A DNA stretch of 33,253 bases from Octadecabacter sp. (GTDB lineage Bacteria; Pseudomonadota; Alphaproteobacteria; Rhodobacterales; Rhodobacteraceae), in assembly GCA_028825445.1 (NCBI GenBank), contig JAPKAD010000022.1, forward strand, positions 1-33,253. Reading direction: 5' to 3'. The notes beneath the pieces are model-generated. The model was not told the DNA's origin. It did not search any database and saw only the letters and a program-made list of their open reading frames with translations. Below are positions 1,572 to 25,797 of this stretch, piece by piece (position 1 is the stretch's first letter; the number at the start of each line of letters is the position of its first letter). The position numbers and the translations under genes were made by a program.

Positions 1572-2456
1572 TCAGATACGACCAAGCCGCCAGTCCGCAA
1601 ATAGATTAGATTTCTTAGAGAATTCGTAAGTGTCGTGTCCAGTAAATAAACCGTCTTGAGTGACAAGAACCGTACGCCATCCACGTGCCGCGGCACCTAA
1701 AATATCAGTGTGCAAGGTGTCTCCACACATAGCGACACGATATGAGGGCACATCTGGTAATGAATTTTCAATTAAATCATAGACTTCTGGGAATGGTTTG
1801 CCAAAAAAACGTACGTGTTCGGGAAACTTGTCTGCGAGGAGGTGACCGTAGTGGCCAGGTTCAATAGAAAACCCTCCGCCGCGCGGTGCGGCCAAGTCGG
1901 CATTGCCTATTAAAAGAGGGCGAGGCCGGTCATTCATTGCAGCCGTGAGTAAGTCTTGTCGCGCTGTTGTCCATTCTGCAGTCGACAAGAACAAAAAATG
2001 ATCCACAGAGTTGTAGATTTTGGGCACGTCTTCTAACCGGCTAGTGGATGCAGGTAAATCGCTTAGGCTGTCTGACGCTGCCGCAATCACACCCCAATGA
2101 CCATCTGATAAATGCAGTAATGCAGCTTCGCGGCTTGTCACGATTTCATTGTCCGCGACAGTCAGTCCAAGACGTTTAAATTTATCGATAGCACCTGCGC
2201 GGTTATAGCTTGCGGCATTTGTTAAAATGCGGATTTCACATCCACGCTCACGCAATTGATCAAGGCGACGGTCTGCACCTGGGATAATTGTCTCTCCCAC
2301 ATTCAAGACACCGAAAGCATCAAATACAAATACATCAACATCGTCTGTGATATCCAGTAACGAATTTATATCAATTGTTTCAGGTTGTGCCGCAACGCTT
2401 GGGAAGCGGCCACTTACTTCTTCGTAACGATTAAAGATCGATTTCGTTGTTAGCAT
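1572..2456 (-). CDS. HAD superfamily class IIA (NagD/TIGR01459-like) hydrolase
   Basis: A 294-residue HAD-fold protein of the NagD/phosphoglycolate-phosphatase branch (class IIA, C2 cap). Motif I is VFDAFGVLN with nucleophile Asp46, motif II is in ILTNAAS, motif III Lys is in FGKPFPEVYD, and motif IV is in CGDTLHTDI. The length suits TIGR01459. The residue two positions after the nucleophile, usually an acidic acid/base in phosphatases, is Phe48. The gene is divergent from a GlpR-like regulator and a phosphoester transport/hydrolysis operon. The likely job, by context, is dephosphorylating the monoester released by the neighbouring phosphodiesterase, for example glycerol phosphate, but nothing in the sequence proves the substrate. 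It probably shares the 2457-2699 control region. Confidence 0.8.
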   Translation of the reverse strand: MLTTKSIFNRYEEVSGRFPSVAAQPETIDINSLLDITDDVDVFVFDAFGVLNVGETIIPGADRRLDQLRERGCEIRILTNAASYNRAGAIDKFKRLGLTVADNEIVTSREAALLHLSDGHWGVIAAASDSLSDLPASTSRLEDVPKIYNSVDHFLFLSTAEWTTARQDLLTAAMNDRPRPLLIGNADLAAPRGGGFSIEPGHYGHLLADKFPEHVRFFGKPFPEVYDLIENSLPDVPSYRVAMCGDTLHTDILGAAARGWRTVLVTQDGLFTGHDTYEFSKKSNLFADWRLGRI

Positions 2457-2699
2457 ATTACCTCAGCAAAAATAGTGACCTCATGGCGTTGTTCCACTTT
2501 AGGGGAAAATGCACAGAGGGGAAGATAAAACAACAAAGACATTTCTTTTTAATTAATTTTATGAAGTAATTATCCCAGTTAATTTAATATTATTGCATTA
2601 AATCAATAATTTATGTTAATTTATGATAATGTAAGATTAAAATGTTGTTTTGTTGCTTTTTCCAGCCTAACGTGGACTTTATACAAGTCAGGAGGTTGT
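2457..2699. promoter_or_regulatory. Divergent control region between the HAD gene and the GlpR-like regulator
   Basis: A 243-bp very AT-rich region from which both divergent units must be transcribed. It contains two perfectly phased copies of AATTTATG spaced 10 bp apart (2608-2615 and 2618-2625) and a third TTTATG at 2558-2563. Direct repeats one helical turn apart fit a multimeric regulator such as the GlpR/DeoR-type protein encoded next door. That assignment is inference. No clear -35/-10 pair was identified. Confidence 0.4.
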
Positions 2700-3479
2700 A
2701 TGTCATCTAAGAAGACTAGTCGGAGAGAGGCAATAATGGCCCTTGTTTTAGAACAAGGAGCTGTGACCGTAGGTTCTTTGGCTGAACGTTTTGATGTCTC
2801 GATGCAGACAATCCGGCGCGACGTGGATGCGCTATGTGAAGACGAAATGCTTCGCCGTGCACATGGTCGGATTGAACTGAGCGAAGAGTTCTTGAACACG
2901 CCGTTTGACCAACGTGCTGGAACCAACCTTTTGGGTAAACGCGCCATTGGTGAGGCCGCTGCACGCTTGATCCCCGATGGGGCATCATTGTTCATTTCTA
3001 TTGGATCAACTCCTTTGAGCGTTGCGCAGGCCTTGCGCCACCGTAAGGGTTTAACTGTAATTACCAATAATTTGAGCGCTGCAATGGTATTAAGTGATGA
3101 AGTCTCGAACCGGATTCTTCTGCCGGGTGGTGAGTTACGCTTGCCAGATCGAGATATACTCGGGAACGAAGTCTTAGATTTTTTTGGACGCTTTCGGGCT
3201 GACTTTGCTGTGTTTGGCACGGCAGGGATCGCGGAAGATGGTGGCCTTTTAGAATTTCACACGACTGAGGTCCGCGCCACGCAAAAAATCTGTGAAAACG
3301 CGCAGAAATCTTTGTTGGTGGTAGATGGATCAAAATTTGGACGTCATGCGCCCGCTTTGGGTGAAAATATTGCAGTCATCGATACTGTCATTATTGACCG
3401 TCGACCGCCTCCGGCTTTCGCGCCGCTGATGAATGCAATCAATAACAGGCTGCTGATAGCGGCAGGAGATGCGACATGA
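2700..3479 (+). CDS. GlpR-like DeoR-family transcriptional regulator
   Basis: A 259-residue DeoR-family repressor. An N-terminal helix-turn-helix (TVGSLAERFDVSMQTIRRDV, about residues 22-41) is followed by the sugar-phosphate-sensing DeoRC domain. The protein tracks E. coli GlpR closely by eye: NTPFDQRA, TVITNNLSAA, LPGGELR, DGGLLEFHTTEVR and VVDGSKFGR all have clear GlpR counterparts. This supports a phosphorylated three-carbon effector such as glycerol 3-phosphate. An ATG at 2613 is in frame, but the ATG at 2700 has a perfect AGGAGG at 2690-2695 and gives the normal family length, so it is chosen here. Its stop overlaps the ATPase start (ATGA, 3476-3479). It is probably the local repressor, acting at the divergent upstream region. 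Confidence 0.88.
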   Translation: MSSKKTSRREAIMALVLEQGAVTVGSLAERFDVSMQTIRRDVDALCEDEMLRRAHGRIELSEEFLNTPFDQRAGTNLLGKRAIGEAAARLIPDGASLFISIGSTPLSVAQALRHRKGLTVITNNLSAAMVLSDEVSNRILLPGGELRLPDRDILGNEVLDFFGRFRADFAVFGTAGIAEDGGLLEFHTTEVRATQKICENAQKSLLVVDGSKFGRHAPALGENIAVIDTVIIDRRPPPAFAPLMNAINNRLLIAAGDAT

Positions 3480-4501
3480 CGAACATCCCCTTTGTAGAGA
3501 TAAAAGAAGTTGCCAAACGTTGGAATGGCCAGCTCGGGGTTGAAGGCATTAACCTCAAAATACCAGAAGGAAGTTTCACGGCACTGCTTGGCCCGTCAGG
3601 TTGCGGTAAGTCCACAACATTGCGGCTACTAGCTGGGTTAGAGTTACCCGATGAGGGTAAGGTTTACATCGATGGTAAGGACGTGACAACGAGTGCAGCT
3701 TCTGATCGTAATTTGTCGATGGTGTTCCAGTCCTACGCGCTTTTCCCGCATCTATCGGTCGCTGAAAATGTAGTTTTCGGACTTAAGGTGCGCCGTGTCC
3801 CCAAGAAAGAGCGGCAGGAAAAACTACGCCGCGCCTTAGATATTACAGGTTTAATTGGCTTCGAATATAGGAAACCTGGTGAATTATCGGGCGGCCAACG
3901 CCAACGCGTGGCTTTGGCCCGCGCGATTGTTGCAGGTCAACGTCTGTGTTTGATGGATGAACCACTCTCGAACCTTGACGCCAAGCTGCGTAATTCGGTC
4001 CGTAAAGACATCAAAAAGTTACAGCGCGATCTGGGTATCACAGTCGTCTACGTAACCCACGACCAGACTGAAGCCATGAGTATGGCGGATACCGTTGTTT
4101 TGATGAAGGATGGTCATATCCAACAGGTTGGGCCACCAGAGGACTTGTATAATAAGCCGAACAATACTTTTGTCGCTGAGTTTGTGGGGTCACCACCAAT
4201 GGCCTTAATCTCTGCTGATGGGCTAGCGGGTTTTACTGAGGGCCAAAAGCTGGGCATCCGTGCGGAAAATATTCAAATCGCACTAAAAGGTGAGGGGCGT
4301 TTGACCTGCACGATTACCGAAAGCGAATTTTTGGGTTCAGAAACGTTAATCGGGCTGGACCATAAGCATGCTACGGGCCTGTGTATCTTGAAATCTGGGA
4401 TGGCATTGATGCCAGAAGGCGAAACGATAGACATTACTTTTACTGACGATCACCTGCACGTTTTTGATGCGGCAGGGAATAGAATGGCGGCGCAGGCATA
4501 A
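3476..4501 (+). CDS. ABC transporter ATP-binding protein, UgpC/MalK type
   Basis: A 341-residue ATPase of the CUT1 (carbohydrate uptake 1) class that powers import through the two permeases downstream. Walker A is GPSGCGKST (39-47), the Q-loop is in MVFQSYALFPH, the signature LSGGQ is at 137-141, Walker B is LCLMDE (157-162) and the H-loop is in VTHDQTEAM. The C-terminal 100 or so residues form the regulatory TOBE/OB domain of UgpC/MalK proteins. Here it is shorter and more diverged than in MalK. The gene is coupled to the regulator by an ATGA overlap and is 46 bp ahead of the binding-protein gene. By context it belongs to a glycerol-phosphate or glycerophosphodiester importer. The ATPase alone does not indicate the substrate. 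Confidence 0.92.
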   Translation: MTNIPFVEIKEVAKRWNGQLGVEGINLKIPEGSFTALLGPSGCGKSTTLRLLAGLELPDEGKVYIDGKDVTTSAASDRNLSMVFQSYALFPHLSVAENVVFGLKVRRVPKKERQEKLRRALDITGLIGFEYRKPGELSGGQRQRVALARAIVAGQRLCLMDEPLSNLDAKLRNSVRKDIKKLQRDLGITVVYVTHDQTEAMSMADTVVLMKDGHIQQVGPPEDLYNKPNNTFVAEFVGSPPMALISADGLAGFTEGQKLGIRAENIQIALKGEGRLTCTITESEFLGSETLIGLDHKHATGLCILKSGMALMPEGETIDITFTDDHLHVFDAAGNRMAAQA

Positions 4502-4547
4502 GATTTGCACCGGCTGAAAGACTATTTTAAACCCTAGGGAGGAAAAC

Positions 4548-5807
4548 ATGAAACTAATCTCAACAACTGCAATTGGCTTGGCGACCGCTATGTCTGTCAC
4601 AACAGCAAGTGCGCAAACCGAACTGACAATGTATTACCCGATCGCAGTGGGTGGATCATTGACCCAAGTCGTCGACGGTATTGTCGCTGATTTCGAAGTT
4701 GCAAACCCAGATATTGACGTCACTGCCATCTATTCGGGCAACTATGACGATACTCGCGTGCGTGCATTGTCAGCCCTTGCATCTGGCGAGGCTGCACAGC
4801 TTGCTGTGATGTTTTCCATTGATGCTTACGACTTGATCGAACAGGAATTGATTGTTCCATTCGAGGAAGTTGCGACTTCAGCGGCAGAAAAAGAATGGTT
4901 GGACAGTTTTTACCCTGCATTGATGGCAAACGGTCAAATTGAAGGCCAGACATGGGGAATTCCTTTTCAGCGATCAACTATTGTCGCTTATTACAACAAG
5001 GATCTGTTCCGCGCTGCTGGCCTTGATCCAGAAGCTCCACCAACCACGTGGGGCGAAATGATTGAGATGGGCAAAGCCCTAACCAATGAAGATACGTATG
5101 GCTTGATGATCCCGTCAACGGGTTATCCGTATTGGATGTTTCAGGCGCTTGCGATCCAAAACGGCAAAGAAATTATGTCTAATGACGGCTTGGCAACATA
5201 TTTCGATGATCCAACGGTCATTGAAACTCTGGAATTTTGGCAGTCGTTGTCAGGTGAGCATGGCATTATGCCAACGGGCACAGTTGAATGGGGCACATTA
5301 CGTCAGGCGTTCCTCGAAGGTCAGACTGCTATGATGTGGCATTCCACAGGTAACCTGACCGCGGTAAAAAATGGCGCCAGCTTTGATTTTGGCGTCGCTG
5401 AACTTCCGGGCAATGTGCGTCTTGGATCACCAACGGGTGGTGGAAACTTTTATCTGTTCAAAGATACAACAGAAGAAGAACGCACAGCCGCTTTGAAATT
5501 GATGCAGTTTATGACAGCACCAGAACAGGCGGCCGCATGGTCTATCGCTACGGGTTATATGGGGGTGTCTCCAGCCGCATATGAAACCAAAGCGTTGCAG
5601 GCTTACGTAGCTGAATTCCCGCCTGCACTTGTGGCTCGCAATCAGCTAGAAAATGCAGTTGCTGAGTTTTCAACGTTTGAAACAGCACGTGTTCGCGATG
5701 GTCTAAACAGCGCGATCCAGTCCGCGCTGACAGGGGCCAAAGAACCAGCAGAAGCCTTGGGCGAAGCTCAAGCCGCAGCAGTACGTTTGCTGTCGGACTA
5801 CCAATAA
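4548..5807 (+). CDS. Extracellular solute-binding protein, UgpB-like (family 1)
   Basis: A 419-residue periplasmic binding protein with a typical signal peptide (MKLISTTAIGLATAMS, cleavage after ASA near residue 22). The body is family 1 SBP: PDIDVTAIYSGNYDDT, GIPFQRSTIVAYYNKDLFRA, and AGLDPEAPPTTW are very like the corresponding parts of UgpB (GNYEQ, PFNSSTPVLYYNKDAF, AGLDPEQPPKTW). E. coli UgpB takes up glycerol 3-phosphate and glycerophosphocholine, so a related phosphoester is the best guess. The ligand-contacting residues are not all recognisable, so the exact ligand is open. The start has a strong site, AGGGAGG, ending about 6 bases before the ATG. A perfect hairpin follows the stop (5814-5846), as often seen after binding-protein genes that are made in excess over their permeases. 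Confidence 0.9.
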   Translation: MKLISTTAIGLATAMSVTTASAQTELTMYYPIAVGGSLTQVVDGIVADFEVANPDIDVTAIYSGNYDDTRVRALSALASGEAAQLAVMFSIDAYDLIEQELIVPFEEVATSAAEKEWLDSFYPALMANGQIEGQTWGIPFQRSTIVAYYNKDLFRAAGLDPEAPPTTWGEMIEMGKALTNEDTYGLMIPSTGYPYWMFQALAIQNGKEIMSNDGLATYFDDPTVIETLEFWQSLSGEHGIMPTGTVEWGTLRQAFLEGQTAMMWHSTGNLTAVKNGASFDFGVAELPGNVRLGSPTGGGNFYLFKDTTEEERTAALKLMQFMTAPEQAAAWSIATGYMGVSPAAYETKALQAYVAEFPPALVARNQLENAVAEFSTFETARVRDGLNSAIQSALTGAKEPAEALGEAQAAAVRLLSDYQ

Positions 5808-5813
5808 TCGCTC

Positions 5814-5846
5814 GGATGGGCCGGAGCGTTATGCATCGGCCCATTC
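5814..5846 (+). promoter_or_regulatory. Intercistronic hairpin after the binding-protein gene
   Basis: ATGGGCCG (5816-5823) and CGGCCCAT (5837-5844) form a perfect 8-bp stem around a 13-base loop, extended outward by a G-T wobble and a G-C pair. There is no T-run after it. It most likely protects the binding-protein mRNA from 3' exonucleases or slows transcription into the permease genes. Confidence 0.7.
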
Positions 5847-5867
5847 ACCCTAAACTGGAGCTACTTC

Positions 5868-6761
5868 ATGTCAGCACACGTTAATCTTGAACGCCGCAGG
5901 CAAGCTATTTATGGCTGGTTGTTATTGTTACCCGCCCTGTTGTTGTTGTCGATCTTCGCGTTTTACCCAACCATGGCGACCCTTTGGTCCAGTTTGTTTT
6001 CACGTGGCACACGTCGCAATCCGGTCGAATATATAGGTACTGGTAATTATTCTGAATTGTTTGCGGATCCGACCTTTTGGATTGTTGTAAAAAATAACCT
6101 TTTGTATGCTGGCGTCACAATTCCTGTATCCATTGGAATTGCTCTAGCGATGGCCCTTTGGGCGAATGGAAAAATCCGCGCGCGCAGCTTTGTGCGCACT
6201 GCCTATTTCACCCCAACTGTGTTGCCAATGATCGCTGCCGCTAACCTTTGGCTGTTCTTTTACACGCCGGGTTTAGGTGTGCTTGATCAAATTGGTTCTG
6301 TATTTGGATTGCCGTCTGTTAATTGGCTGGGTCAGCCGGAAACTGCGCTTTGGGCGATTATCATAGTAACAATCTGGAAAGAGGCAGGGTTCTTCATGAT
6401 CTTCTACCTCGCTGCGCTGCAAACCATTCCCGAAGATTTGAAAGAAGCCGCTGACATCGAAGGCACAAGTCGGTGGACCTACACGCGCCGCATCGTGTTA
6501 CCCTTGTTGATGCCGACTACGTTATTTATTGCCGTCAACGCGCTAATAAATTCAGTAAAGTTAATAGATCATTTATTTATCTTGACCAAGGGCGGCCCGT
6601 CGGATGCCTCCAAGCTATTACTGTATTACATCTGGGAAATGGCATTTGCGTTCTTTGATTCACCACAAGCCGCAGCCATGACGATCCTTGTGATTGGAGT
6701 CTTGGCAATCGTGGCGGCGGTGCAGTTCCTCTATCTTGATAAAAGGACGCATTACCAATGA
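5868..6761 (+). CDS. ABC transporter permease, UgpA-like
   Basis: A 297-residue inner-membrane permease, one of the two channel subunits of the importer. Six hydrophobic segments are visible, starting with LLLLPALLLLSIFAF near residue 18 and ending with TILVIGVLAIVAAVQFLYL near the C-terminus. The cytoplasmic EAA loop that contacts the ATPase is EAADIEGTSRWTYTRRIVLP, starting near residue 193, with the conserved EAA and G. The stop overlaps the start of the second permease (ATGA at 6758-6761). This permease type (MalF/UgpA) pairs with a MalG/UgpE type, which is what follows. Confidence 0.92.
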   Translation: MSAHVNLERRRQAIYGWLLLLPALLLLSIFAFYPTMATLWSSLFSRGTRRNPVEYIGTGNYSELFADPTFWIVVKNNLLYAGVTIPVSIGIALAMALWANGKIRARSFVRTAYFTPTVLPMIAAANLWLFFYTPGLGVLDQIGSVFGLPSVNWLGQPETALWAIIIVTIWKEAGFFMIFYLAALQTIPEDLKEAADIEGTSRWTYTRRIVLPLLMPTTLFIAVNALINSVKLIDHLFILTKGGPSDASKLLLYYIWEMAFAFFDSPQAAAMTILVIGVLAIVAAVQFLYLDKRTHYQ

Positions 6762-7567
6762 AGCGGTTTAGCAATTTTATGGACAGCTTTGGTGCAATTC
6801 TTTTGGCAGTTGTCTGGATCGCTCCTCTACTATTTGCGTTCTGGGCTGCCACTCATTCCACATCTGATGCAGTAAATTTGAGACTTTTTTCGCCGTGGAC
6901 TTTGGAAAACTTTCGCGTTGCATGGTACGGAGCACCGTGGCTTAAATATTTTATAAACACCTTCAGTTTGGTAACGGTGATCTTGATTGGACAGTTCATC
7001 CTAGTGACGCTGGCCGGGTTTGCCTTTGCGCAGCTGAAATTTTTTGGCAAAGACTTTGTTTTTATTCTGGTGTTGATGCAGCTGTTTATTTTACCTGAAG
7101 TTCTGATTGTGGAAAATTATGCCATGGTGTCACGGTTAGGATTATTCGATACTATTCTAGGTGTGGGCATGCCATACATGGCGTCTGCGTTTGGTATTTT
7201 CTTGATGCGCCAAGCGTTTAAAGGCGTGCCGATTGAATTGCATGAAGCTGCTCGAATTGAAGGCTGTGGTTTGCTCGGTATCTTATGGCGCGTTTACGTG
7301 CCCTTAGCAAAACCGACATACTTGGCCTACGCACTGGTTTCTGTGTCAACCCACTGGAACAATTTTTTGTGGCCCCTCATTGTAACAAATTCGCCAGAAA
7401 CACGTCCTTTGACGGTTGGTCTTTCGATCTTTGGTGCACCTGAAAACGGCGTAGATATCAGTGTGATATCTGCGGCAACTTTGATGTCGGTTGCACCACT
7501 TCTTATCGCTTTCCTAATTTTCCAACGCCAGTTTGTACAAGCTTTTTTGCGCGCAGGGATCAAATGA
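6758..7567 (+). CDS. ABC transporter permease, UgpE-like
   Basis: A 269-residue inner-membrane permease of the MalG/UgpE type, partner of the preceding gene. Six membrane segments are visible, from FGAILLAVVWIAPLLFAF at the N-terminus to LLIAFLIFQRQFVQAFL at the end. The EAA motif, HEAARIEGCGLLGILWRVYV, starts near residue 162. The C-terminal FLRAGIK tail fits the family. It overlaps the upstream permease and the downstream phosphodiesterase by ATGA junctions (the latter at 7564-7567), so import and ester hydrolysis are translationally linked. Confidence 0.92.
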   Translation: MKRFSNFMDSFGAILLAVVWIAPLLFAFWAATHSTSDAVNLRLFSPWTLENFRVAWYGAPWLKYFINTFSLVTVILIGQFILVTLAGFAFAQLKFFGKDFVFILVLMQLFILPEVLIVENYAMVSRLGLFDTILGVGMPYMASAFGIFLMRQAFKGVPIELHEAARIEGCGLLGILWRVYVPLAKPTYLAYALVSVSTHWNNFLWPLIVTNSPETRPLTVGLSIFGAPENGVDISVISAATLMSVAPLLIAFLIFQRQFVQAFLRAGIK

Positions 7568-8355
7568 GCACGATACTTCAGATCACGGACACGCATATTG
7601 TTGGTGACGGAGCGTTGGTCTCGAGACGTTTGGAAACGTCTTCGGCCTTGACTCACCTGATCGAACGCATCGTGTCGATTAGGCATCAGATTGGCGTCAT
7701 TGACGCAGTTTTGGTAACGGGTGATCTTAGCGATGATGGCAGTAAAGTTAGCTACGAAAAGTTCAAAGACTTGCTTGCACCCCTTGATCTACCGTTGCTT
7801 GTCATCCCTGGAAATCATGATGTTCGCGAACCGATGAGGGCTGCGTTTGTTACTCAATTCACTAGTAATGGGCCACTAAATTGGGTTAATCAAGTGGGTG
7901 ATCTGACAATTATAGGCCTCGACACTTTAGTCGAAGGAACGGGCAAAGGCACTCTTAGCACTCAAACTTTGGACTTTTTAGAAACCACACTTGCAAACGC
8001 CCACAATAAGCCGATCTTGCTTGCCATGCACCACCCACCGTTTTTATCGGGCATCAATTTTATGGATAACATTGGCTTGACTAACCGCGACGCATTTTGC
8101 GATATTGTGTCCTGTCACATAGGCCCGATGCGAATTGTTTGCGGTCATATTCATTCTATGATGATTACGGACGTTGGTGGGCACACCGCAATTTCGGCGC
8201 CGTCTCCGTGTAGCACATTTAACTATGATATACGTGATTGTGCACCTATAGGTTTTATGGTGCAAGAAGATGGATGCCTTTTGCATAAATGGTCCACCGT
8301 TTTTCAAACAATACGGATAGGACCTGGCATCGGGACTGGTCCATTCCAGTTTTAA
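7564..8355 (+). CDS. GpdQ-like cytoplasmic metallophosphodiesterase
   Basis: A 263-residue binuclear-metal phosphodiesterase (calcineurin-like fold, class III cyclic-nucleotide/glycerophosphodiester group). All expected ligands are visible: Asp9 and His11 (ITDTHI), Asp54 (VTGDLSDDG), Asn84 and His85 (PGNHD), His156 (MHHPPF), His195 and His197 (CGHIHSMM). From memory, Enterobacter GpdQ uses Asp8, His10, Asp50, Asn80, His156, His195 and His197, an almost identical layout. There is no signal peptide, so it acts in the cytoplasm on imported substrate. It is coupled to the UgpE-like gene. The likely reaction is cleavage of a glycerophosphodiester to glycerol 3-phosphate and an alcohol. A CpdA-like cAMP phosphodiesterase is the alternative, less likely given the transporter operon. 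Confidence 0.88.
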   Translation: MSTILQITDTHIVGDGALVSRRLETSSALTHLIERIVSIRHQIGVIDAVLVTGDLSDDGSKVSYEKFKDLLAPLDLPLLVIPGNHDVREPMRAAFVTQFTSNGPLNWVNQVGDLTIIGLDTLVEGTGKGTLSTQTLDFLETTLANAHNKPILLAMHHPPFLSGINFMDNIGLTNRDAFCDIVSCHIGPMRIVCGHIHSMMITDVGGHTAISAPSPCSTFNYDIRDCAPIGFMVQEDGCLLHKWSTVFQTIRIGPGIGTGPFQF

Positions 8356-8374
8356 ACTATTTCTCTGACAGAAA

Positions 8375-10036
8375 GTGTGGGCTTTGGAAGACGCATACCC
8401 TATTCAATTCCTGATTCAAATCGCTGGGGCGGCGTCCCTTCTTATATGGGCTGTTCGATTGGTCCGAACTGGTGTTGAGCGCGGTTTTGCAGCGCCTTTG
8501 CGGTTCTGGTTGCGCCATTCTGCTAAGAACCGTCTGCTGGCGGCGGCCACAGGTATGGGGGCGGCAGTGTTCCTTCAAAGCTCAACTGCTGTGGCGGTTT
8601 TAGTATCCAACTTTGTAGCAAAAGGCAGCCTTGCGACCGCTGCTGGTTTGGCGATTTTGTTGGGGGCGGATGTGGGATCAGCAGTTGTCACGCAGTTGTT
8701 GATGGTGCGTCAAGCGACCCTGATACCTTTATTATTATTGGCTGGGGTTGCCATACATCAACGCGCAAACGGCAGCACCCGCCAAGTTGGCCGTATCCTT
8801 ATTGGGCTTGCTATGATTTTTGTGTCATTAGATATGATCCGCACTGCAACAGGGCCCTTGGTAGACTACCCAGGCACTCAGGGGGTCATGGCTTACCTTG
8901 GGAGTGATTTACTGACAGCTTTTGTTTTGGGTGCGGGTTTTGCATGGATTGTACATTCTAGTGTTGCAGTGGTGTTGTTGTTTGTCACGCTGGCAGCGCA
9001 GGCCGTTCTGCCTGTTCCAGCAGCTGTGGCTATGATCCTTGGAGCCAATCTGGGTGGTGCATTTATTGCCTACGTGTTGACGTTGTCGGCGCCCTTGGCG
9101 TCGCGGCGGATGGTTGTTGCGAACCTTGTATTGCGGGGGGGCGGTGCGGCGCTTGTGACGTTGTTGATATCGGAAATGCCTTATCTGCTAAATAATTTAG
9201 GATCTACGCCCGCGCGACAATCCATTAATTCACATCTTATTTTCAATCTGACGTTGGCATTAATTGCATTGCCTTTTGTTGGGGTGCTGACATCTTTGCT
9301 GACACGTCTGATGCCAGATAAAATATTAGAGGATAATCCGCTGGTAGCAGTTTCCGCTCTTGATCCGAACGCTTTGGAACGGCCTCAACGTGGTTTGGAT
9401 TGTGCGGCGCGCGAATTACTTGGCATGGGGCAGAAAATCGAACGCATGTTGATTTCAGTCGAACCGCTTTATGATAATTGGCACCCTGCGACTGCAAAAA
9501 CTATTAAAGATCAAGATCTTACAATCAAGAAGATGCACCTTGATGTAAAGCTTTACCTTGCCAAGTTGGGCCAAAAGGGGCTGGATGAGGAGCTGGGCCG
9601 CAGGTCGATGGATCTTGCGTCAATCTCCTCAAGCCTTGATTCTGCGTCCGATGCAATTGCTAGAATTATGTTAGAATTGGCCAAAAGGCTTGACGCTCAG
9701 CGGCTTCAGTTTTCGTCACAAGGGCGTGAAGAAATTACCGATTTTGCTGATCGTGTGCAAAGCAACGTTCAACTTGCCCTAAATGTTATGATGAACCAGA
9801 ACCCATCTGAAGCGCGCGAACTTGTGCTAGCCAAGGAAAAAGTCCGGAAAGTCGAACAGAAACTTCAACGTAATCATATTGGCCGCCTACGCGAAGGTTT
9901 GGTGGAAAGTATTGAGACCAGCAACATCCATCAAGAAACCCTTCGCGCTCTCAAACAAGTCAACACCGCTTTTTCAATGGTTGGGTATCCAATTTTGCTA
10001 AAATCTGGTGATCTGTTGAAAAGTAGGTTGTCATAA
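8375..10036 (+). CDS. Na/Pi cotransporter family protein with PhoU-like C-terminal domain (YjbB-like)
   Basis: A 553-residue inner-membrane protein. Residues 1-310 hold two Na_Pi_cotrans repeats, each with the QSS/HSS-type motif (AAVFLQSSTAVAVLV and WIVHSSVAVVLLF). Residues about 335-550 are a helical PhoU-like cytoplasmic domain. This is the architecture of E. coli YjbB, which has been reported to export phosphate. Start: GTG at 8375, 19 bases after the phosphodiesterase stop; the Shine-Dalgarno is weak. As the last gene of an operon that imports and splits phosphoesters, its inferred role is disposal of excess phosphate, or Na-coupled phosphate transport more generally. No terminator of convincing quality follows. 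Confidence 0.85.
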   Translation: MWALEDAYPIQFLIQIAGAASLLIWAVRLVRTGVERGFAAPLRFWLRHSAKNRLLAAATGMGAAVFLQSSTAVAVLVSNFVAKGSLATAAGLAILLGADVGSAVVTQLLMVRQATLIPLLLLAGVAIHQRANGSTRQVGRILIGLAMIFVSLDMIRTATGPLVDYPGTQGVMAYLGSDLLTAFVLGAGFAWIVHSSVAVVLLFVTLAAQAVLPVPAAVAMILGANLGGAFIAYVLTLSAPLASRRMVVANLVLRGGGAALVTLLISEMPYLLNNLGSTPARQSINSHLIFNLTLALIALPFVGVLTSLLTRLMPDKILEDNPLVAVSALDPNALERPQRGLDCAARELLGMGQKIERMLISVEPLYDNWHPATAKTIKDQDLTIKKMHLDVKLYLAKLGQKGLDEELGRRSMDLASISSSLDSASDAIARIMLELAKRLDAQRLQFSSQGREEITDFADRVQSNVQLALNVMMNQNPSEARELVLAKEKVRKVEQKLQRNHIGRLREGLVESIETSNIHQETLRALKQVNTAFSMVGYPILLKSGDLLKSRLS

Positions 10037-10911
10037 ACGGAATCAAATATTTTCATATGTTGAAAGATGAGTTTTCAGACTGAAAGGGAATAAAATCTTT
10101 ATTCATTTCAGCCGTTTGACATGTGAAAATACTGCGTACATGCGCCAATGTATGCTTCGGGCAAACTGTCCCACAGCACAGGACAATTTTAGAAAAGTCA
10201 GCTAGCGTGAAGATTCCTCCAGGATACTTTAAGTTTAGTAGAATACCACAGTTCCGCAATGCTCGGTTATAGAACCCAAAGTTTGTGGCCAACATTTTTA
10301 ATGCATGATTATACTGCTTAATGGATCCAGTGGAGAAACCCTAATTGTCAGACTCAACCAAGATACCCATGTGTAGCTTGATGATACTGAAAACTTTTAC
10401 ATTTCGCAGCGTTACTAAGTAGTAGCATTCCAAGTCTTATATTAAAAAAATTTGATATGAATTAGCACAAACAAGCCTGGCTTTTAAGAAGCCAAGACAG
10501 TATCGCGCGAACACTACCTTATCTATAAATTCTGTACCAAAGATGATCTGGCTATTTTGAGCACGATTTTTATAAATATTGCATAGCTGTTGATCACTAC
10601 ACGAAGCGAAGTTTGGTGAAGGGGCAGGGCGCAAGGGTTTCAAGACCTATTTCATCTTGTTCTTTGTAAAGATATTTATCGAACATGGAAATATCGTATA
10701 CGACAACGCAGAACAGCTATTTTGCAAGTACGGAAAATTAACCCCAGCTAAAGCCTCTAACAAAGGATTAAAATAAAATGGTATCAATGCCTTAAAAGAA
10801 AATGTAATTAACCTTCAATTGGCTGTAAACCAGCAGTATTACTGGAATGTTTTTAGCCTCCAACACTTTTATCAAATTTATGTTGAGGCTGCCCAACAAA
10901 AGGACGGACAA
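10037..10911. other. Gene-poor decayed stretch after the Na/Pi carrier
   Basis: No intact gene recognised. Short open frames exist on both strands (for example 10053-10295 and 10437-10643, minus) but lack start signals and family resemblance. One plus-strand open segment without a start, 10594-10776, looks protein-like and is listed separately. Confidence 0.5.
10594..10776 (+). pseudogene. Unidentified protein fragment without a start codon
   Basis: A 60-codon open stretch ending in TAA with a credible amino-acid composition (KTYFILFFVKIFIEHGN, then KYGKLTPAKASNKGLK) but no start codon or ribosome site. It reads like the C-terminal end of a degraded gene. I do not recognise the family. Confidence 0.25.
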
Positions 10912-11834
10912 ATGAAAGTATTTCTACGGACGCACAGATCATAATGATAATCAAAGGACAGGATTCTGTTAAAAAGACTGCTGATTTATGTCGGCGGTAA
11001 AGAGTCACGTTTGCGACGACTTATAGATATAATTCTAAGTATGATGCTGGAGCCGTCTGACGCAAAATGGCTGAGGTCCTTGGAGCACGATAATGGCAAG
11101 CTTAAAAAGCTGCTTGCTGATCAGTTGTTTGACAATACTTAGTTTCGCGACATTATTTTTTAAAATTAGTAATGTCTTCGGTAAAAAAAATAATGCCATG
11201 GCGCACTAGAGATGCTGCTGTTTGTGAGACGCAATCAATAGGGTTTCACTGGAACGACGACGGTTTGATTATCGTTGCATTTTGATGGTTGAGTGCGAAG
11301 GTTTTGCGATGACCCCAGCAAGATCAAGCGTATTTATTCTAAAGAAAATATACAGTTTTTTGTGATGTGGCAGAAAGCGTGCCTTAAACATACGCAAACC
11401 AATTGTGTTGTCTGATGTTCTAAACCAACGGCGGAGCTTGGGCTTCGTATAGGATACTTTGACGGACGGTTGCCGATTTCACCTTTTGACTATTGATGAT
11501 GATTTTAGCTGTGAGAACCTAGTACTTGTATTAAAATATATTTTTGTCAGGTCAGCGTGTGGAGCCTGAATTTGATAGGGTAATTGTTGCGCGTGGAATA
11601 TAAATGATAATTGCTTCAGACAACGGAACTAAATTCACCAGTATCGTTTTCCCAAAATGGGTGCAGGAAATAAGCATCGATTGGCACTATATTTCACTTA
11701 GTCAGCCCCACTCTTTCAGAGTTTAGTGAAAATCTGAAAGATAAATGCCTAATCGAAACAATATTGTGCACACTCCGCGGTTCTCGCAAAACGCTGGAAG
11801 AATGATGGGAAGATTTCAACTAATTTAAACTACA
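10912..11834 (+). pseudogene. Decayed IS3-family transposase (OrfA and OrfB remnants)
   Basis: Translating fragments across frames recovers a whole IS3-type element. OrfA: start-like ATG at 10912, then TDAQIIMIIKG and KKTADLCRR (10926-11002), a stop, and then the diagnostic EPSDAKWLRSLEHDNGKLKK and LLADQLFDNT with a TAG at 11140-11142. OrfB: RRRFDYR near 11260, LTIDDDFS near 11485, SDNGTKFTS with the second catalytic Asp at 11619-11621, IDWHYISLSQPHS, and ENLKDKCLIETI with the catalytic Glu region and LEE-stop-WEDFN near 11725-11820. At least several frameshifts and stops separate these pieces, so the element is long dead. The pattern fits the IS407/IS511-like side of the IS3 family. No terminal repeats or target duplication could be identified. 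Confidence 0.85.
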
Positions 11835-13431
11835 TTTAATCTTAGTAGATTTAACCTAAATAAATCCCTGAAGAAAAATGATGATAAATAATAGCGGTTC
11901 AATGTTACAGGTACGCCCCTTAAGATTTTGCACAAGTTTGAGTGAACCTGGGGCGCATGTCAGAGACAAAGTCTGCATAAACGCGTCGTCAGCCATTCCA
12001 TAAATCACAATTTTTTAATCTGGAGTGTGGCTACAACAGCAGAGACATTCTCAAGCTGATACAAACCACTGCTTTTGCTGAATAGCGCTAATTTTAAATA
12101 ATTTCCAGTTTTGTAAGTGATACGGAAACGAGTTCAAAACTGTTTGGCAGGACAAATTGCTGAGTTTGGCAGGGATTCAGCTAAGTGTCTTATTATTGCC
12201 TTGTTTTGTGACGTTGATAAGTACCTCTTATGTCAAAAAATAGGATATTTTATGACCGTTCAATTTTCGTAAACTAATTGGCGTGTAAGCTCCTCATTGA
12301 ATAGGGTGGTTTTTATCTTCAGTCCGTATCAATTAAGATAATCTTTGCAAAACTTGTTCTATAGTATGTCCCTATTTTTCTTCATTGGGTGTCTTTGAAA
12401 ACAAGTGGTTGGATTCAAAATGTCTTGTCTTGCCTAAATGAGGCAATTCCTTAAATTAAGACTTATTGTACTCTTGTTTAATTCAAGCTTTGTTGCGAGC
12501 ATTCTCATAGTGAGAGTTTCTTTATGTAACAGGCACCCCACAAAATTAATTTGTTTTGATTTTACGCAATATTTCTACCAATCTAAACACAGGAACTAGT
12601 CTTTTTTTGTATTATAATTAGAGAATTTCTCTGCAGCTTTGTAACAGATTTGATAATAAGATATTGCGTTCTGATTTATCTGAATGGCTTTAAAAGTAAA
12701 TTAAATTGCATGATTGGTAAGTATTAATTGCAAGGCTGTTTCATTAAAGCGCACTGTGATGATGCTATTGTCTTTGTGATCAAAACTAATCCTAGCACGC
12801 GCGACGTTTCTGATGGTGGCGGAGTCAGTTGTAGAAACGCTGGTGTATGTAAACGGATGTTAGAAAGAATTATGCGGTGTCTTTGTTATTTACGATACAA
12901 AAACAGCAGACATTTTCAGGTTCTTTTGAACTAGAAATTCATGTTGGACCAGTAACTTTGCAATAAGAATATCCTATCTTTTTTTTACTTCACGTTAAAT
13001 AGTAAAAAAAACTTTTGAGCGTCCAACAAACACATATTAGCTCCATAGATCTCAAAAATATTTTTTACTCCTAACGAGATAGACATCTTGGCATCAATAT
13101 AAATACGAATCCCCTCAGTGTGGTCTGAAGTAAATTTTGGCTCATCAAGGCTGTACACCAATTCATGAGTTAATTGGCTTTGACACAAATTAAGGCGAAT
13201 AAATATAACCTGTTAAAAACCAAAATTAATTTTGGTGTGTTAGCCTCATATATCTTTTAAAATTCTGTTAAATAAGTAACTTTACCAACTGAAATTGTTG
13301 GGAGGTATCTCAGAAATGGATTTTTTTGCCTCCGTATAACTATTTTTTGTGTTTTTCAGGACCCATCTCAAGCAATAAAAAAGGGTTTGAAATATGTTAT
13401 GTCACGCAAATTTTTGACATGTTGCCTATTT
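11835..13431. other. Long AT-rich stretch without an intact gene
   Basis: About 1.6 kb between the IS3 fossil and the aldehyde dehydrogenase control region. No frame with both a plausible start and a recognisable family was found. Contents noted: a 6-bp stem TTGCCT/AGGCAA at 12430-12446 with no T-run, an open frame at 12728-12934 with no resemblance, and the possible HesB/IscA remnant on the minus strand near 12985-13200. Confidence 0.5.
12985..13200 (-). pseudogene. Possible HesB/IscA-family (A-type iron-sulfur carrier) remnant
   Basis: On the minus strand the segment reads IRLNL, then ELVYSLDEPKF, then GIRIYIDAKMSISLGVKN. This follows the order of an A-type carrier: a first strand, a GF-Y-L-DEP strand, and the GV-VVID-KS-LL-G segment. 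The Cys-containing GGCSG loop is not readable (here CQSQLTHE) and the C-terminal CGCG motif is absent, so if it is this family it is broken. The resemblance is short and by eye only. Confidence 0.28.
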
Positions 13432-13471
13432 TAGATGTTGTTTCATAATAATAGATGTTGTTTCATAATAA
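13432..13471 (+). repeat. Perfect 20-bp tandem repeat upstream of the aldehyde dehydrogenase gene
   Basis: TAGATGTTGTTTCATAATAA occurs twice back to back (13432-13451 and 13452-13471) with no mismatch. It lies 86 bp before the aldehyde dehydrogenase start, downstream of a TTGACA (13414-13419). Two helical turns per unit makes it a good candidate for a duplicated operator or promoter element, although a recent slippage duplication explains it equally well. Confidence 0.8.
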
Positions 13472-13556
13472 ATGTCACCATTCGTTATGTGAATTAATTG
13501 GTACTGGCACGCACGTTGCTTTCATTCAATTAATAAATCAAAGGAGGAACTAACTC

Positions 13557-16310: not shown

Positions 16311-16349
16311 TGGTGCGTTATGAATGTCTTCGTGTTTAGAGGGATCGGT

Positions 16350-17102
16350 ATGAGTTCTGCTATTTTACTGAATTTATATAAAGATCCTTTAGCGAAAGTG
16401 GTCCACCACTCTATAAAAGACGATGTGGCTGAACGTTTCGTCACGTTAATTTCCTCCGGTGTCCTGAGTGTAGGTGATGTATTGCCAGGTGAGCGGGATT
16501 TGGCATCTGCAATGGGCGTCAGTCGTGAAACGATCCGCGGTGCTCTTTTGATATTATCCACCAAAGGCATAGTTTCGGTGGTGCAAGGCGCACGCACCAA
16601 AGTGGTATCTGCTGATGTTGGCCATTTGGGTATTTCTGTAATGTCAAATGGTAGTGTCACAGACTACGCACTTAACGACGTCCACGAAGTGCGCCTCATG
16701 GTGGAGGCTCAGGTAGCTGTGTTGGCAGCCAAAAGAATTGATGTTGCAACTGTCAATCAACTCAAGAAATTGATTAAAGTTCAAGAGACAACCACAGAGT
16801 ATCCTGTTAATTTTTTAATTGCGGACAGAGCATTTCATACCACGGTATATCAATCATGTGGAAATGCTGTTTTGTCCGATTTTGCGACCACTCTATACTC
16901 ATACCAACTTAATCACAGGCGGAGTGCAGTTAGTAAGCCTGGGGTTATAAAACAGAGTATAGAAGATCACCGTTTAATTTTAAGAGCGCTTGGAACAAAG
17001 GATGCTGACGCGCTGATAAAGGCATTCGGAGTGCATGAACGTCGTATCTATAGCAGCACGCTAGCGATGCTTGGGATGCCTAATAGTGAGAAGAACACAT
17101 GA
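16350..17102 (+). CDS. GntR-family (FadR/FCD subgroup) transcriptional regulator
   Basis: A 250-residue regulator. The N-terminal winged helix carries LPGERDLASAMGVSRETIRG (from about residue 45), the classic GntR recognition segment. The rest is an all-helical FCD ligand-binding domain with the DRAFH and DHRLI histidine/aspartate elements that usually hold a metal and a carboxylate ligand. An in-frame ATG at 16320 exists, but it lies only about 12 bases after the predicted transcription start. The ATG at 16350 has AGAGGG 6-7 bases upstream, so it is chosen. The stop overlaps denD (ATGA, 17099-17102). It is probably the tetronate-responsive repressor of this operon, binding the palindrome at 16294-16310. 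Confidence 0.85.
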   Translation: MSSAILLNLYKDPLAKVVHHSIKDDVAERFVTLISSGVLSVGDVLPGERDLASAMGVSRETIRGALLILSTKGIVSVVQGARTKVVSADVGHLGISVMSNGSVTDYALNDVHEVRLMVEAQVAVLAAKRIDVATVNQLKKLIKVQETTTEYPVNFLIADRAFHTTVYQSCGNAVLSDFATTLYSYQLNHRRSAVSKPGVIKQSIEDHRLILRALGTKDADALIKAFGVHERRIYSSTLAMLGMPNSEKNT

Positions 17103-18091
17103 GAGTAGCAATCATTGGCGCGGCAGGGATGATTGGCCGCAAATTAGCAGAGCGTATTGCGACAACGGGTCAGATTGGTGGGCAGAGGGTTGATGCAATG
17201 ACCCTTATAGATGTAATTTTGCCTGAGGTTGCCATTGATTTCGCAGGCGTGCGTGATGCCTTTGTAGCAGACTTGGCCGAACCGGGTGTGGCCACACGCG
17301 TCATTTCAGAGCGCCCAGAATTCATTGTGCATCTTGCTGCAATCGTCTCAGGTGAGGCCGAGGCAAATATGGCAAAAGGTTACCGCGTTAATCTTGAGGG
17401 TACTCACGCCTTGTTGCAAGCTATTGCAGCTGTTGATGGGTACCATCCACGTGTAATCTATGCCTCCTCACTGGTAGTTTTTGGTGCGCCATTTCCTGCA
17501 CAAATTCCGGATGATTATCATCTCACCCCGCTAACCAGCTATGGTACGCAAAAGGCTATGGGAGAGTTGCTGCTGAATGATTATTCGCGCCGTGCGATCG
17601 TAGATGGTATTGGAATTCGTTTTCCAACGATCTGTATCCGGCCTGGCAAACCCAATAAGGCGGCTTCAAGTTTTTTCTCAAGTATTCTGCGTGAGCCTTT
17701 GAATGGTGAAAAAGCGATCTTGCCTGTTGCAAAAGATGTCCGGCATTGGTTTGCAAGTCCGCGAGCGGCCGTCACGTATATTGAGCATGCAGCGACAATG
17801 GATACAAGCCACCTTGGGGGGCAGCGCTGCATGACGATGCCGGGAGTGTCAGCAACGGTGGGCGAACAAATTGAAGCTCTTCGATTGGTTGCGGGAGACG
17901 GAGCTGTTGCACTGATCAGCCAAGTCCCCGATGCGAATATTGCCAGTATTGTTGCAGGCTGGCCCCGCAACTTCGATACTGTACGTGCCCTTCGATTAGG
18001 CTTTCGTGCTGAGAAATCTTTTCAGGAAATCATTGAGATCTATCTGGAGGATGAGATGGGTGAACACGTCGGCCAACGTGCCTTAAGATAG
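17099..18091 (+). CDS. denD: D-erythronate dehydrogenase
   Basis: A 330-residue extended short-chain dehydrogenase of the DenD type, which oxidises D-erythronate to 2-oxo-D-erythronate with NAD. The N-terminal Rossmann glycine motif is GAAGMIG. The active site has the SS of YASSLVVFG and the YxxxK pair Tyr148/Lys152 (SYGTQKAMGE). Assignment to DenD rather than a general sugar-nucleotide epimerase rests on the neighbours, since the four downstream genes are exactly the other steps of tetronate catabolism. The start overlaps the regulator stop. The 115-bp gap before ltnD is the only sizeable gap in the operon. Confidence 0.85.
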   Translation: MRVAIIGAAGMIGRKLAERIATTGQIGGQRVDAMTLIDVILPEVAIDFAGVRDAFVADLAEPGVATRVISERPEFIVHLAAIVSGEAEANMAKGYRVNLEGTHALLQAIAAVDGYHPRVIYASSLVVFGAPFPAQIPDDYHLTPLTSYGTQKAMGELLLNDYSRRAIVDGIGIRFPTICIRPGKPNKAASSFFSSILREPLNGEKAILPVAKDVRHWFASPRAAVTYIEHAATMDTSHLGGQRCMTMPGVSATVGEQIEALRLVAGDGAVALISQVPDANIASIVAGWPRNFDTVRALRLGFRAEKSFQEIIEIYLEDEMGEHVGQRALR

Positions 18092-18206
18092 ACGCCACAT
18101 CACCTTGATCTGGTTTGTACTGACTGTATTTTTTGATTTTATAATAATTACCTACGCTATATCGATCACAATGTGGCCAGTGAAATGAGTTTTTGGAGAA
18201 TAAAAT

Positions 18207-19094
18207 ATGTTGATTGATTTCGTAGGCCTTGGCTCAATGGGACTGGGCATGGCGACAAGCCTTTTAAAAGCGGGATATGACGTACGCGGATATGATCCTG
18301 ACGTGGCAAGGGTTGAAATGCTGTGCGCACAGGGTGGAGTGGCTTACACAGGCGCGAAAGAGCTCCAGGCCGACGCGATCGTTTGCGTAGTGTTGAATGC
18401 TGATCAAACGCGTGACATTCTATTCGGCGAACACGGGGTTGCAGCACAGCTGTGCAAGGGTGGATTGATAATATCCTGCGCCACCGTTTCTCCAGCCTTC
18501 GCCAGCGAAATGGAGTTTGAGGCTGTTACGCACGGTCTTCTGTACCTCGATGCGCCCATATCTGGTGGGGCTATAAAAGCAGCTGAAGGTCGTCTATCGA
18601 TCATGGCTTCGGGGACTGTTGAAGCATTTACAGCTGCTGATCCTTTGCTAAATGCGATGTCTGAGACGATTCACCGTTTGGGTGATCGGGCTGGACCAGG
18701 CTCTGCTATGAAGGCCGTTAACCAGCTTTTGGCAGGTGTTCATATAGCGGCAATGGGTGAGGCCCTCGCGTTTAGTGTTTCCCAAGGGCTTGATCCAGCA
18801 CGCGTAGTTGATGTTATATCTGCTTCCGCAGGTACGTCGTGGATGTTTGAGAATCGCGCACCCCATGTGGTGGAGAGTGATTACAGTCCACGATCCAAGA
18901 TTGATATCTGGCTGAAAGATTTGGGTATTGTGACTGATATTGGGGCATCTTCAGGTTTGCCTCTGCCAATATCTTCGAACGCTTTAATACAGTTTCGTTC
19001 GGCATCGGACGCGGGACTGGGGCAAGAAGATGATGCAGCAATTGCAAAATACTTTGCGCGCGCAGGCGGTGTGATAATGCCTGGAGATTACTGA
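18207..19094 (+). CDS. ltnD: L-threonate dehydrogenase
   Basis: A 295-residue beta-hydroxyacid dehydrogenase of the LtnD type, oxidising L-threonate at C2 to the 2-oxo acid with NAD. The N-terminal dinucleotide motif is GLGSMGLGM, the substrate loop is DAPISGGAIKAAEG, and the catalytic Lys169 lies in SAMKAVNQ. The GGAG at 18195-18198 supports the ATG at 18207. The stop overlaps the otnK start (TGATG at 19092-19096). Having both denD and ltnD lets the operon accept D-erythronate and L-threonate. Confidence 0.87.
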   Translation: MLIDFVGLGSMGLGMATSLLKAGYDVRGYDPDVARVEMLCAQGGVAYTGAKELQADAIVCVVLNADQTRDILFGEHGVAAQLCKGGLIISCATVSPAFASEMEFEAVTHGLLYLDAPISGGAIKAAEGRLSIMASGTVEAFTAADPLLNAMSETIHRLGDRAGPGSAMKAVNQLLAGVHIAAMGEALAFSVSQGLDPARVVDVISASAGTSWMFENRAPHVVESDYSPRSKIDIWLKDLGIVTDIGASSGLPLPISSNALIQFRSASDAGLGQEDDAAIAKYFARAGGVIMPGDY

Positions 19095-20338: not shown

Positions 20339-20979
20339 CGTCAATTTTGCGTGAACAGATTTGCCTGTTGGCGAAATCAATGTTCGATCGTGGGCTAACT
20401 GGCGGTAGCACTGGAAATATCTCTGCTCGTACTCCTGATGGTGGTTTGCTCGTCTCGCCAACTGGCACAAGTTTTGGGCGTCTTGATCCCGCGCGGCTCA
20501 GTTATTTTGATGAGAAGGGAACCCTTATAAGTGGTGATCTACCGACCAAAGAAATGCCACTGCATTCCGCCTTTTATGACACTCGCAGTACGGCTGGTGC
20601 TGTTGTTCATCTACATGCTTGTCATTCGGTTGCTTGGTCGATGATGCCTGATGCCGATGTGGATAATTTCCTGCCGCCTATGACCCCCTACGCTATTATG
20701 AAACTTGGCCGTGTAAAATTGCTGCCATTTTTCCGCCCGGGTGATCCCGCAATGGGCGAAGCGGTGCGTGGACTTGCGGGTAAACGCTCTGCGGTAATGC
20801 TTGCAAACCACGGTCCAGTGGTTGCAGGTAAGGATGTTGAGGCGGCCTGCAACGCCATTGAGGAGCTTGAAGACACAGCTCGGCTTGCAATGTTGATGCG
20901 CGGTATCCCCGCCCAAATGCTGGACCAGACACAGATCACCGATCTGGTGACTCATTTTAATATTGAATGGGACGACTGA
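20335..20979 (+). CDS. otnC: 3-oxo-tetronate 4-phosphate decarboxylase
   Basis: A 214-residue class II aldolase/adducin-family enzyme that decarboxylates 3-oxo-tetronate 4-phosphate to dihydroxyacetone phosphate and CO2. Visible features are the phosphate-binding GGSTGNISAR and SPTGTSFG loops, the conserved KEMPLHSAFY acidic segment, the metal pair His92/His94 (HLHACH) and a third metal histidine in ANHGPVVAG. The stop overlaps the otnI start at 20977-20981. The product feeds lower glycolysis directly. Confidence 0.92.
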   Translation: MTSILREQICLLAKSMFDRGLTGGSTGNISARTPDGGLLVSPTGTSFGRLDPARLSYFDEKGTLISGDLPTKEMPLHSAFYDTRSTAGAVVHLHACHSVAWSMMPDADVDNFLPPMTPYAIMKLGRVKLLPFFRPGDPAMGEAVRGLAGKRSAVMLANHGPVVAGKDVEAACNAIEELEDTARLAMLMRGIPAQMLDQTQITDLVTHFNIEWDD

Positions 20980-25757: not shown

Positions 25758-25797
25758 TAGAGAGACGACCAAAAATAAAAATTATAGGGAGATAATT

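Follow-up and report, generated by a model that had tools for sequence, protein, structure and literature searches.

The Ugp system of Escherichia coli and Salmonella (UgpBAEC-UgpQ) combines an ABC importer of the CUT1 family with a cytoplasmic phosphodiesterase, and the marine bacterium Phaeobacter sp. MED193 grows on glycerol 1-phosphate and glycerol 3-phosphate as carbon source through its glycerol-phosphate importers GpxBACD and UgpB (PMC12718374, PNAS 2025, in the sections consulted). In Salmonella, phosphate export has been ascribed to YjbB, and GlpT is an antiporter that swaps glycerol 3-phosphate for phosphate (PMC11389368, sections consulted). Catabolism of 2-aminoethylphosphonate (2AEP) is phosphate-insensitive and exports phosphate during growth, with no export protein named in the part of the report consulted (PMC8316502). 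Here we describe a related cassette in a 33,253-nucleotide stretch of Octadecabacter DNA (JAPKAD010000022.1; this whole stretch is called the window) from a 3.2-Mb genome that is 88% complete. The cassette spans positions 1572-10036 and consists of one divergent HAD hydrolase gene and seven plus-strand genes, for a regulator, a four-gene ABC importer, a phosphodiesterase and a sodium/phosphate (Na/Pi) cotransporter-PhoU fusion. The eight genes were re-derived in the order and on the strands given by an earlier note on this DNA.

The cassette resembles Ugp in its importer, which belongs to the same CUT1 branch and conserves the phosphate ligands, and in its cytoplasmic phosphodiesterase. It differs in having a metallophosphodiesterase in place of UgpQ, a Na/Pi gene next in line, and a DeoR-type regulator with no Pho box found in a sequence scan. 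The likewise marine Gpx system of MED193, whose GpxB is a PhnD-type protein (PMC12718374, sections consulted), is unrelated to these two CUT1 importers. Whereas GlpT performs uptake and phosphate release in one protein, the cassette would use separate import and export proteins; 2AEP catabolism likewise joins organophosphorus use to phosphate export, but the substrate is a phosphonate and not an ester. The cassette is probably a conserved operon for phosphoester catabolism with phosphate export, a novel combination built from known parts, and no paper describing it was found among the titles and abstract openings of the open-access literature.

Gene order in other Rhodobacterales, a question raised by the earlier note, was checked by scanning named genomes with the phosphodiesterase as query, which detects close relatives only. 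Of the 51 distinct loci that this yielded, 13 carry the cassette (L001-L013, with L002 cut by a contig end), 12 of them alphaproteobacterial and one from Enterovibrio coralii (L013). The Na/Pi-PhoU gene lies directly downstream in 10 of the 13; in L013 it is distant (32% identity), divergent and on the opposite side of the cassette. The first permease gene of L013 (8292-9184) is split over two frames, either a real break or a sequencing error. Among 149 sampled genomes of the order, 15 encode the binding protein at an identity of at least 75%. Within 10 kb of it lie the phosphodiesterase in 13 of these cases, a member of the HAD family in 11 and the Na/Pi gene in 9. The importer has diverged less than the phosphodiesterase: across 16 chosen relatives the binding protein has a median identity of 87% and the second permease one of 92%, as against 63% for the enzyme.

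Importer, phosphodiesterase and likely substrate

The importer is encoded by a UgpC-like ABC ATPase gene (3476-4501; PF00005, TOBE_2; 348 bits to NF008653, cut-off 432), a solute-binding protein gene of the UgpB branch (4548-5807), and genes for a UgpA-like permease (5868-6761; PF00528; 121 bits to NF007852, cut-off 335) and a UgpE-like permease (6758-7567; PF00528; 106 bits to NF008210, cut-off 297). With the binding protein at 147 bits to the NCBIfam UgpB model (cut-off 411), all four genes miss the cut-offs of their Ugp families. The genome's true UgpB, at 527 bits, is on another contig (C25). An ordinary Ugp operon is ruled out by these two observations together, and the low UgpB score and the true UgpB on C25 identify the importer as a second, different system.

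We mapped the ligand-contact residues of Phaeobacter UgpB, as given in the sections of PMC12718374 consulted, onto the binding protein (Phaeobacter numbering). The four phosphate ligands Y64, S143, S266 and Y342 are all kept, as are G303, R393 and W191. The glycerol pocket is changed at E88S, W188Y and S142R, which leaves W191 of the Trp188/Trp191 clamp in place. The 13 orthologues examined, all at least 73% identical, show the same retained and replaced residues; in a fourteenth locus, L078 (46% identity), the phosphate ligands are kept and other positions differ. CUT1 controls keep far fewer of the four phosphate ligands: none in MalE, none in a CUT1 protein of the same genome and one in YcjN. 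A plain sugar importer is disfavoured by this comparison, in which MalE binds maltose and the ligands of the other two controls are assumed to be sugars. Because all four phosphate ligands are conserved, the ligand most likely bears a phosphate, its glycerol end being held otherwise than in UgpB, and with a phosphodiesterase gene next door a diester would be the economical reading. The importer called UgpB-type in the earlier note is thus most likely of a phosphoester type, as its phosphate site indicates, but it is not UgpB.

The phosphodiesterase (7564-8355; PF00149) belongs to the GpdQ/Rv0805/CpdA superfamily of two-metal enzymes and is predicted to be cytoplasmic. It has all seven of the residues that we take to be the metal ligands of GpdQ (D9, H11, D54, N84, H157, H195 and H197), as the earlier note had said, and they are invariant in 30 of 30 aligned relatives. 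Against PDB sequences, phmmer gave 81 bits for GpdQ and 79 for Rv0805. A fold search with a predicted model (pLDDT 92.5) gave TM scores of 0.88-0.89 for GpdQ and 0.75-0.85 for Rv0805. GpdQ of Enterobacter aerogenes is therefore the best fold match, with the same metal ligands, but identity is about 25% and Rv0805 is nearly as close, so that GpdQ is only slightly favoured as the nearest relative of the modelled enzyme. The top family models were CpdA (NF008359, 119 bits) and SpdA (NF050112, 112 bits), both below cut-off, in a listing that held no GpdQ model. The GpdQ-like label of the earlier note holds for the fold and the metal ligands; as a name it is barely ahead of Rv0805, and the family models favour CpdA and SpdA.

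With the fold and the family models pointing in different directions, sequence alone does not name the substrate of the phosphodiesterase, and it is genomic context that tips toward glycerol phosphates. In L003, L008 and L010, glpD lies 3' of the Na/Pi gene on the same strand (770 bits in L003 and 762 in L008, cut-off 360; L010 assigned by 89% identity), which fits glycerol 3-phosphate as the product. The window's genome has two glpD copies, both elsewhere. In L012 a GpxB orthologue (505.6 bits to 9LF9) adjoins the cassette, and in L101 an importer of the cassette type and gpxBACD surround one Na/Pi gene, with no phosphodiesterase. A nucleotide-type phosphoester, either a cyclic nucleotide or a dinucleotide cleaved by a CpdA/SpdA-like enzyme, is an improbable substrate. 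It would account for the leading family models and for the alteration of E88 and W188, and a near relative of UgpB is a dinucleotide-binding protein (PMC12718374, sections consulted); the GlpR-like regulator, glpD beside three sister cassettes, the gpx genes adjoining L012 and L101, and the better fold match to GpdQ speak against it.

A second type of phosphodiesterase (35-41% identity) occurs in L014-L031; in 16 of these 18 loci its gene comes directly 3' of one for an ABC ATPase. In the MED193 locus of this type (L019) the importer is of the PhnS/SBP_bac_6 type, and the single Na/Pi match among the 18 loci is a partial one (23%, L016).

The Na/Pi-PhoU and HAD families across Rhodobacterales

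The last gene of the cassette (8375-10036) encodes a candidate phosphate exporter. As the earlier note proposed, it is a YjbB-like Na/Pi-PhoU protein, with two Na_Pi_cotrans stretches (PF02690), a PhoU match (PF01895; 31 bits, cut-off 23.5) and 126 bits to NF037997 (cut-off 50). YjbB of E. coli and Salmonella is of the same Na/Pi transporter family but distant in the tree, and E. coli K-12 yjbB sits between metH and pepE, unlike the cassette gene.

Matches to this exporter family number 66, in 58 of the 149 genomes. Contexts were assigned by tblastn in 62 neighbourhoods, 60 from other genomes and two of the window's genome, leaving out second copies in G133 and G110 as well as G078 and G077. 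With overlaps counted once, 23 of them contain an importer of these kinds: a cassette-type binding protein is near in 10, Gpx genes in 10 and Ugp genes in 7; 14 have a Gpx or Ugp importer. Another 10 neighbourhoods have at least two 2AEP genes (PhnW, PhnA, PhnY and AepX/AepW-like, with representatives checked), 13 have a DeoR-type regulator, an IMPase-like gene or the HAD family only, and 16 have none of these. In total 33 of 62 are beside organophosphorus catabolism genes, and phosphate export inside a catabolic operon, if this is what the gene provides, is not the unusual arrangement that the earlier note took it to be. L073 and L074, for example, have a Ugp-like importer, a GDPD-type phosphodiesterase (79 bits to UgpQ, cut-off 264) and a Na/Pi gene in line.

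Five loci (L097, L099, L113, L115 and L116) carry a Na/Pi gene with a DeoR-type regulator and a PehA-like phosphoric/sulfuric ester hydrolase (461 bits in L099, cut-off 900). They are perhaps another phosphoester pathway with phosphate disposal.

A quick exporter tree of 73 rows was built with no bootstrap, L118 (279 aa) being dropped and L001-L010 having been fetched through the cassette. In the clade of the window's exporter, 30 of 35 rows lie by Gpx, Ugp or cassette-type importers (20 of 25 after subtracting L001-L010), and a second clade of 32 rows is found in phosphonate and regulator contexts. The L101 exporter falls in the second clade and was therefore recruited separately; so, probably, was that of L013, which lies outside both clades on a long branch joining YjbB. 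Recurrent linkage to organophosphorus genes is what a shared function in phosphate release predicts, and a role in phosphate disposal is consistent with the linkage to genes for glycerol-phosphate and phosphonate use, although the pattern does not prove the direction of transport.

That the Na/Pi gene is a passenger, there by chance and taking no part in the pathway, would be in keeping with its absence or its distance of more than 10 kb at 6 of the 15 cassettes of the order sample. We consider this very improbable, as 20 of the 66 copies lie within 10 kb of gpxB, a cassette-type binding protein or the HAD family where random placement, which ignores kinship, predicts 0.61 (here and below the counts include the window itself), and the exporters come in different arrangements and from different source clades.

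The divergent gene (1572-2456, minus strand) encodes a HAD-IIA-like hydrolase (PF13344/PF13242) that narrowly misses the TIGR01460 (HAD-IIA) cut-off, with 98.7 against 100.15 bits; its paralogue on contig C60 of the same genome scores 111.9. Motifs II, III and IV are intact. In all 26 rows, which include one gene twice, motif I is DAFGVL, with no second Asp. In HAD phosphatases the second Asp of the motif I DxD is the acid/base. The best fold match is 2hx1, a possible sugar phosphatase, and others include a phosphoglycolate phosphatase and the glycerol phosphate phosphatase Rv1692. In L003, L008 and L010 the divergent position holds a HAD-IIB gene instead (55 bits to TIGR01484 in L003, cut-off 41.8), a replacement that hints that a phosphatase is wanted there.

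The HAD family was matched 65 times, in 59 of the 149 genomes. Of these matches 32 lie no more than 10 kb from gpxB, against 0.26 expected under random placement, and 11 are near a cassette-type binding protein. Counted from gpxB, 32 of 51 genes have the HAD family nearby. The window's genome itself has a HAD copy 3' of gpxD on C60 (this contig starts partway through gpxA), followed by a second Na/Pi gene 74% identical to that of the window, and another HAD copy 3' of gpxD on C80. In MED193 there is one gpxB match; gpxA, two permease genes and then a HAD-family member (L133, 12532-13419; 41% identity) come after it, and the words phosphatase, phosphodiesterase and PhoU do not occur in the main text of PMC12718374. 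We put the family forward as a candidate for an unnamed step after import. On C80 (L134) a second HAD gene, with the canonical DLDGVAY, lies upstream of gpxB at 6143-6955, so that two HAD types flank one importer operon.

From these patterns we tentatively suggest, as a possibility that we would not yet favour, a portable phosphate-dump module in Rhodobacterales, made of a YjbB-type exporter and often the DAFGVL HAD protein. It would be placed on the cassette importer, on the distantly related UgpBAEC or on the unrelated GpxBACD, the exporter also on 2AEP pathways, and the HAD enzyme after gpxBACD, including that of MED193, would be the missing one that opens archaeal glycerol 1-phosphate to use by dephosphorylating it, despite having no second Asp.

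Junctions, operator and regulation

The genes of the cassette are presumably co-transcribed. The ATGA couplings that the earlier note saw at most junctions are present at three of six (3476, 6758 and 7564), and the remaining gaps are 46, 60 and 19 nucleotides. The 60-nucleotide gap (5808-5867), 3' of the binding-protein gene and before the first permease gene, holds a strong hairpin (-26.1 kcal/mol). A hairpin between binding-protein and permease genes is a common arrangement that raises binding-protein output. No RNA family matched the window at the Rfam gathering score.

The regulator (2700-3479, plus strand; PF00455, PF08220) most likely starts at 2700 and not at the open reading frame (ORF) start of 2613, with AGGAGG at 2690-2695 by eye. 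It scores 212 bits to the GlpR model NF008154, short of the cut-off of 331. A different GlpR-like gene (243 bits, also below cut-off) is divergent beside glpD on C48, which makes the cassette regulator a GlpR paralogue. It is thus of the DeoR family and GlpR-like, as first described, but not GlpR.

Upstream of the regulator is an operator, ATGTTGTTTTGTTGCTTT, at 2642-2659 on the plus strand. Of 21 upstream regions, 18 match its 17-base core, TGTTGTTTTGTTGYTTT, at 14 or more of 17 positions, at a point 35-47 bases ahead of the regulator start, the motif having been taken from the same 21 regions that were scored and the shuffles keeping single-base composition only. An inverted copy on the opposite side reaches at least 13/17 in 16 of 21 regions and 17/17 in L004; in the window (2527-2543, minus strand, HAD side) it is weak, at 12/17, with 7.6% of shuffles as good. 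The exact core occurs once in the window's genome, at the cassette. We claim no wider regulon, as allowing two mismatches gave 21 sites in this genome and 15 in a reversed control. In 15 loci of other context, searched whole and on both strands, the best site was at most 13/17 in 13, with 11 in L101, and the exception, L012, has the cassette's own site. The operator overlaps the putative -35 box (2645-2650; -10 TAACGT at 2668-2673, both hexamers by eye), and repression is therefore the likely mode.

For the Pho box, scanned by consensus, the best site in the window is 9/14, with 129 of 200 shuffles as good, and 19 of the 21 regions have no site above shuffles. PhoB control of the window's cassette is thus unsupported, and the lack of a Pho box and the private, conserved operator argue for control by substrate, as the earlier note supposed, rather than by phosphate starvation. 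These results also bear on the possibility that the diesters are imported as a phosphorus source, with the Na/Pi protein an importer or a PhoU-type phosphate sensor, which we consider unlikely. The Salmonella Ugp system is activated by PhoB and required for growth on glycerol 3-phosphate as phosphorus source (PMC11389368, sections consulted), Pho-box-like sites in L007 and L079 are equalled or bettered by only 1 and 6 of 200 shuffles, and the Na/Pi protein matches the sodium-dependent phosphate transporter model TIGR01013 at 153 bits, though below its cut-off of 306. Apart from the Pho-box scan and the private DeoR-type operator, scavenging is opposed by the linkage of the exporter family to genes for 2AEP, a pathway with phosphate export (PMC8316502, sections consulted).

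Neighbouring genes, proposed pathway and meaning

On the near side of the cassette, csgF- and csgG-like genes lie at 129-1123, the CsgG-like ORF having 183 residues against a model of 277 positions. Beyond the cassette, about 3.5 kb (10037-13556) contain no ORF of 120 residues or more; the stretch up to 11000 is AT-rich by eye and is possibly decayed mobile DNA. A GntR/NanR-like regulator and an L-threonate/D-erythronate pathway follow at 16320-21743, with D-erythronate and L-threonate dehydrogenases, 3-oxo-tetronate kinase and the 4-phosphate decarboxylase above cut-off and the isomerase below. ORF translations indicate a dipeptidase-like gene and then a dipeptide/oligopeptide-type ABC transporter at 24699-30975; neither of the two genes from this region put to family search matched at 1e-30.

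In the pathway that we propose for the cassette, the periplasmic binding protein would capture a phosphate-bearing ligand for import by the ABC transporter. The two-metal phosphodiesterase would split the diester in the cytoplasm, most likely to glycerol 3-phosphate and an alcohol. The glycerol 3-phosphate could then be oxidized by GlpD, which this genome encodes at other sites and three relatives encode just after the cassette, or dephosphorylated by the divergent HAD protein, or both, and surplus phosphate would leave through the YjbB-like Na/Pi-PhoU protein. The DeoR-family protein, acting as a repressor at its own operator over the promoter, may switch the operon, and perhaps the HAD gene, in response to substrate or product and not to phosphate starvation.

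Several observations weigh against this scheme. E88 and W188, both replaced here, are glycerol-end contacts in UgpB (PMC12718374, sections consulted), and the best family models of the phosphodiesterase are CpdA and SpdA. The HAD protein has no second Asp in motif I. L013, L072 and L101 are without a good operator. No Na/Pi gene was found in the DNA examined around the cassettes of L011 and L012, six of the 15 order-sample cassettes have no exporter within 10 kb, and two of these six genomes have no match to the exporter family anywhere at an E-value of 1e-30. Finally, 29 of the 62 exporter neighbourhoods have no Gpx, Ugp or window-type importer and fewer than two 2AEP genes. With these points taken into account, we judge it reasonably probable that the cassette is catabolic, serving glycerophosphodiester-type phosphoesters with export of phosphate.

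The wider pattern of exporter and HAD genes, with the HAD protein as a candidate for glycerol 1-phosphate, is more interesting than the cassette itself. It raises the questions of which protein exports phosphate during growth on organophosphorus compounds and which enzyme processes imported glycerol 1-phosphate. If the module exists, organophosphorus would be eaten for carbon or nitrogen and its phosphate returned to seawater. If our reading of the cassette is true, marine roseobacters would use phosphoesters as carbon, releasing phosphate even under phosphate scarcity, which would bear on the recycling of phospholipid phosphorus at sea.

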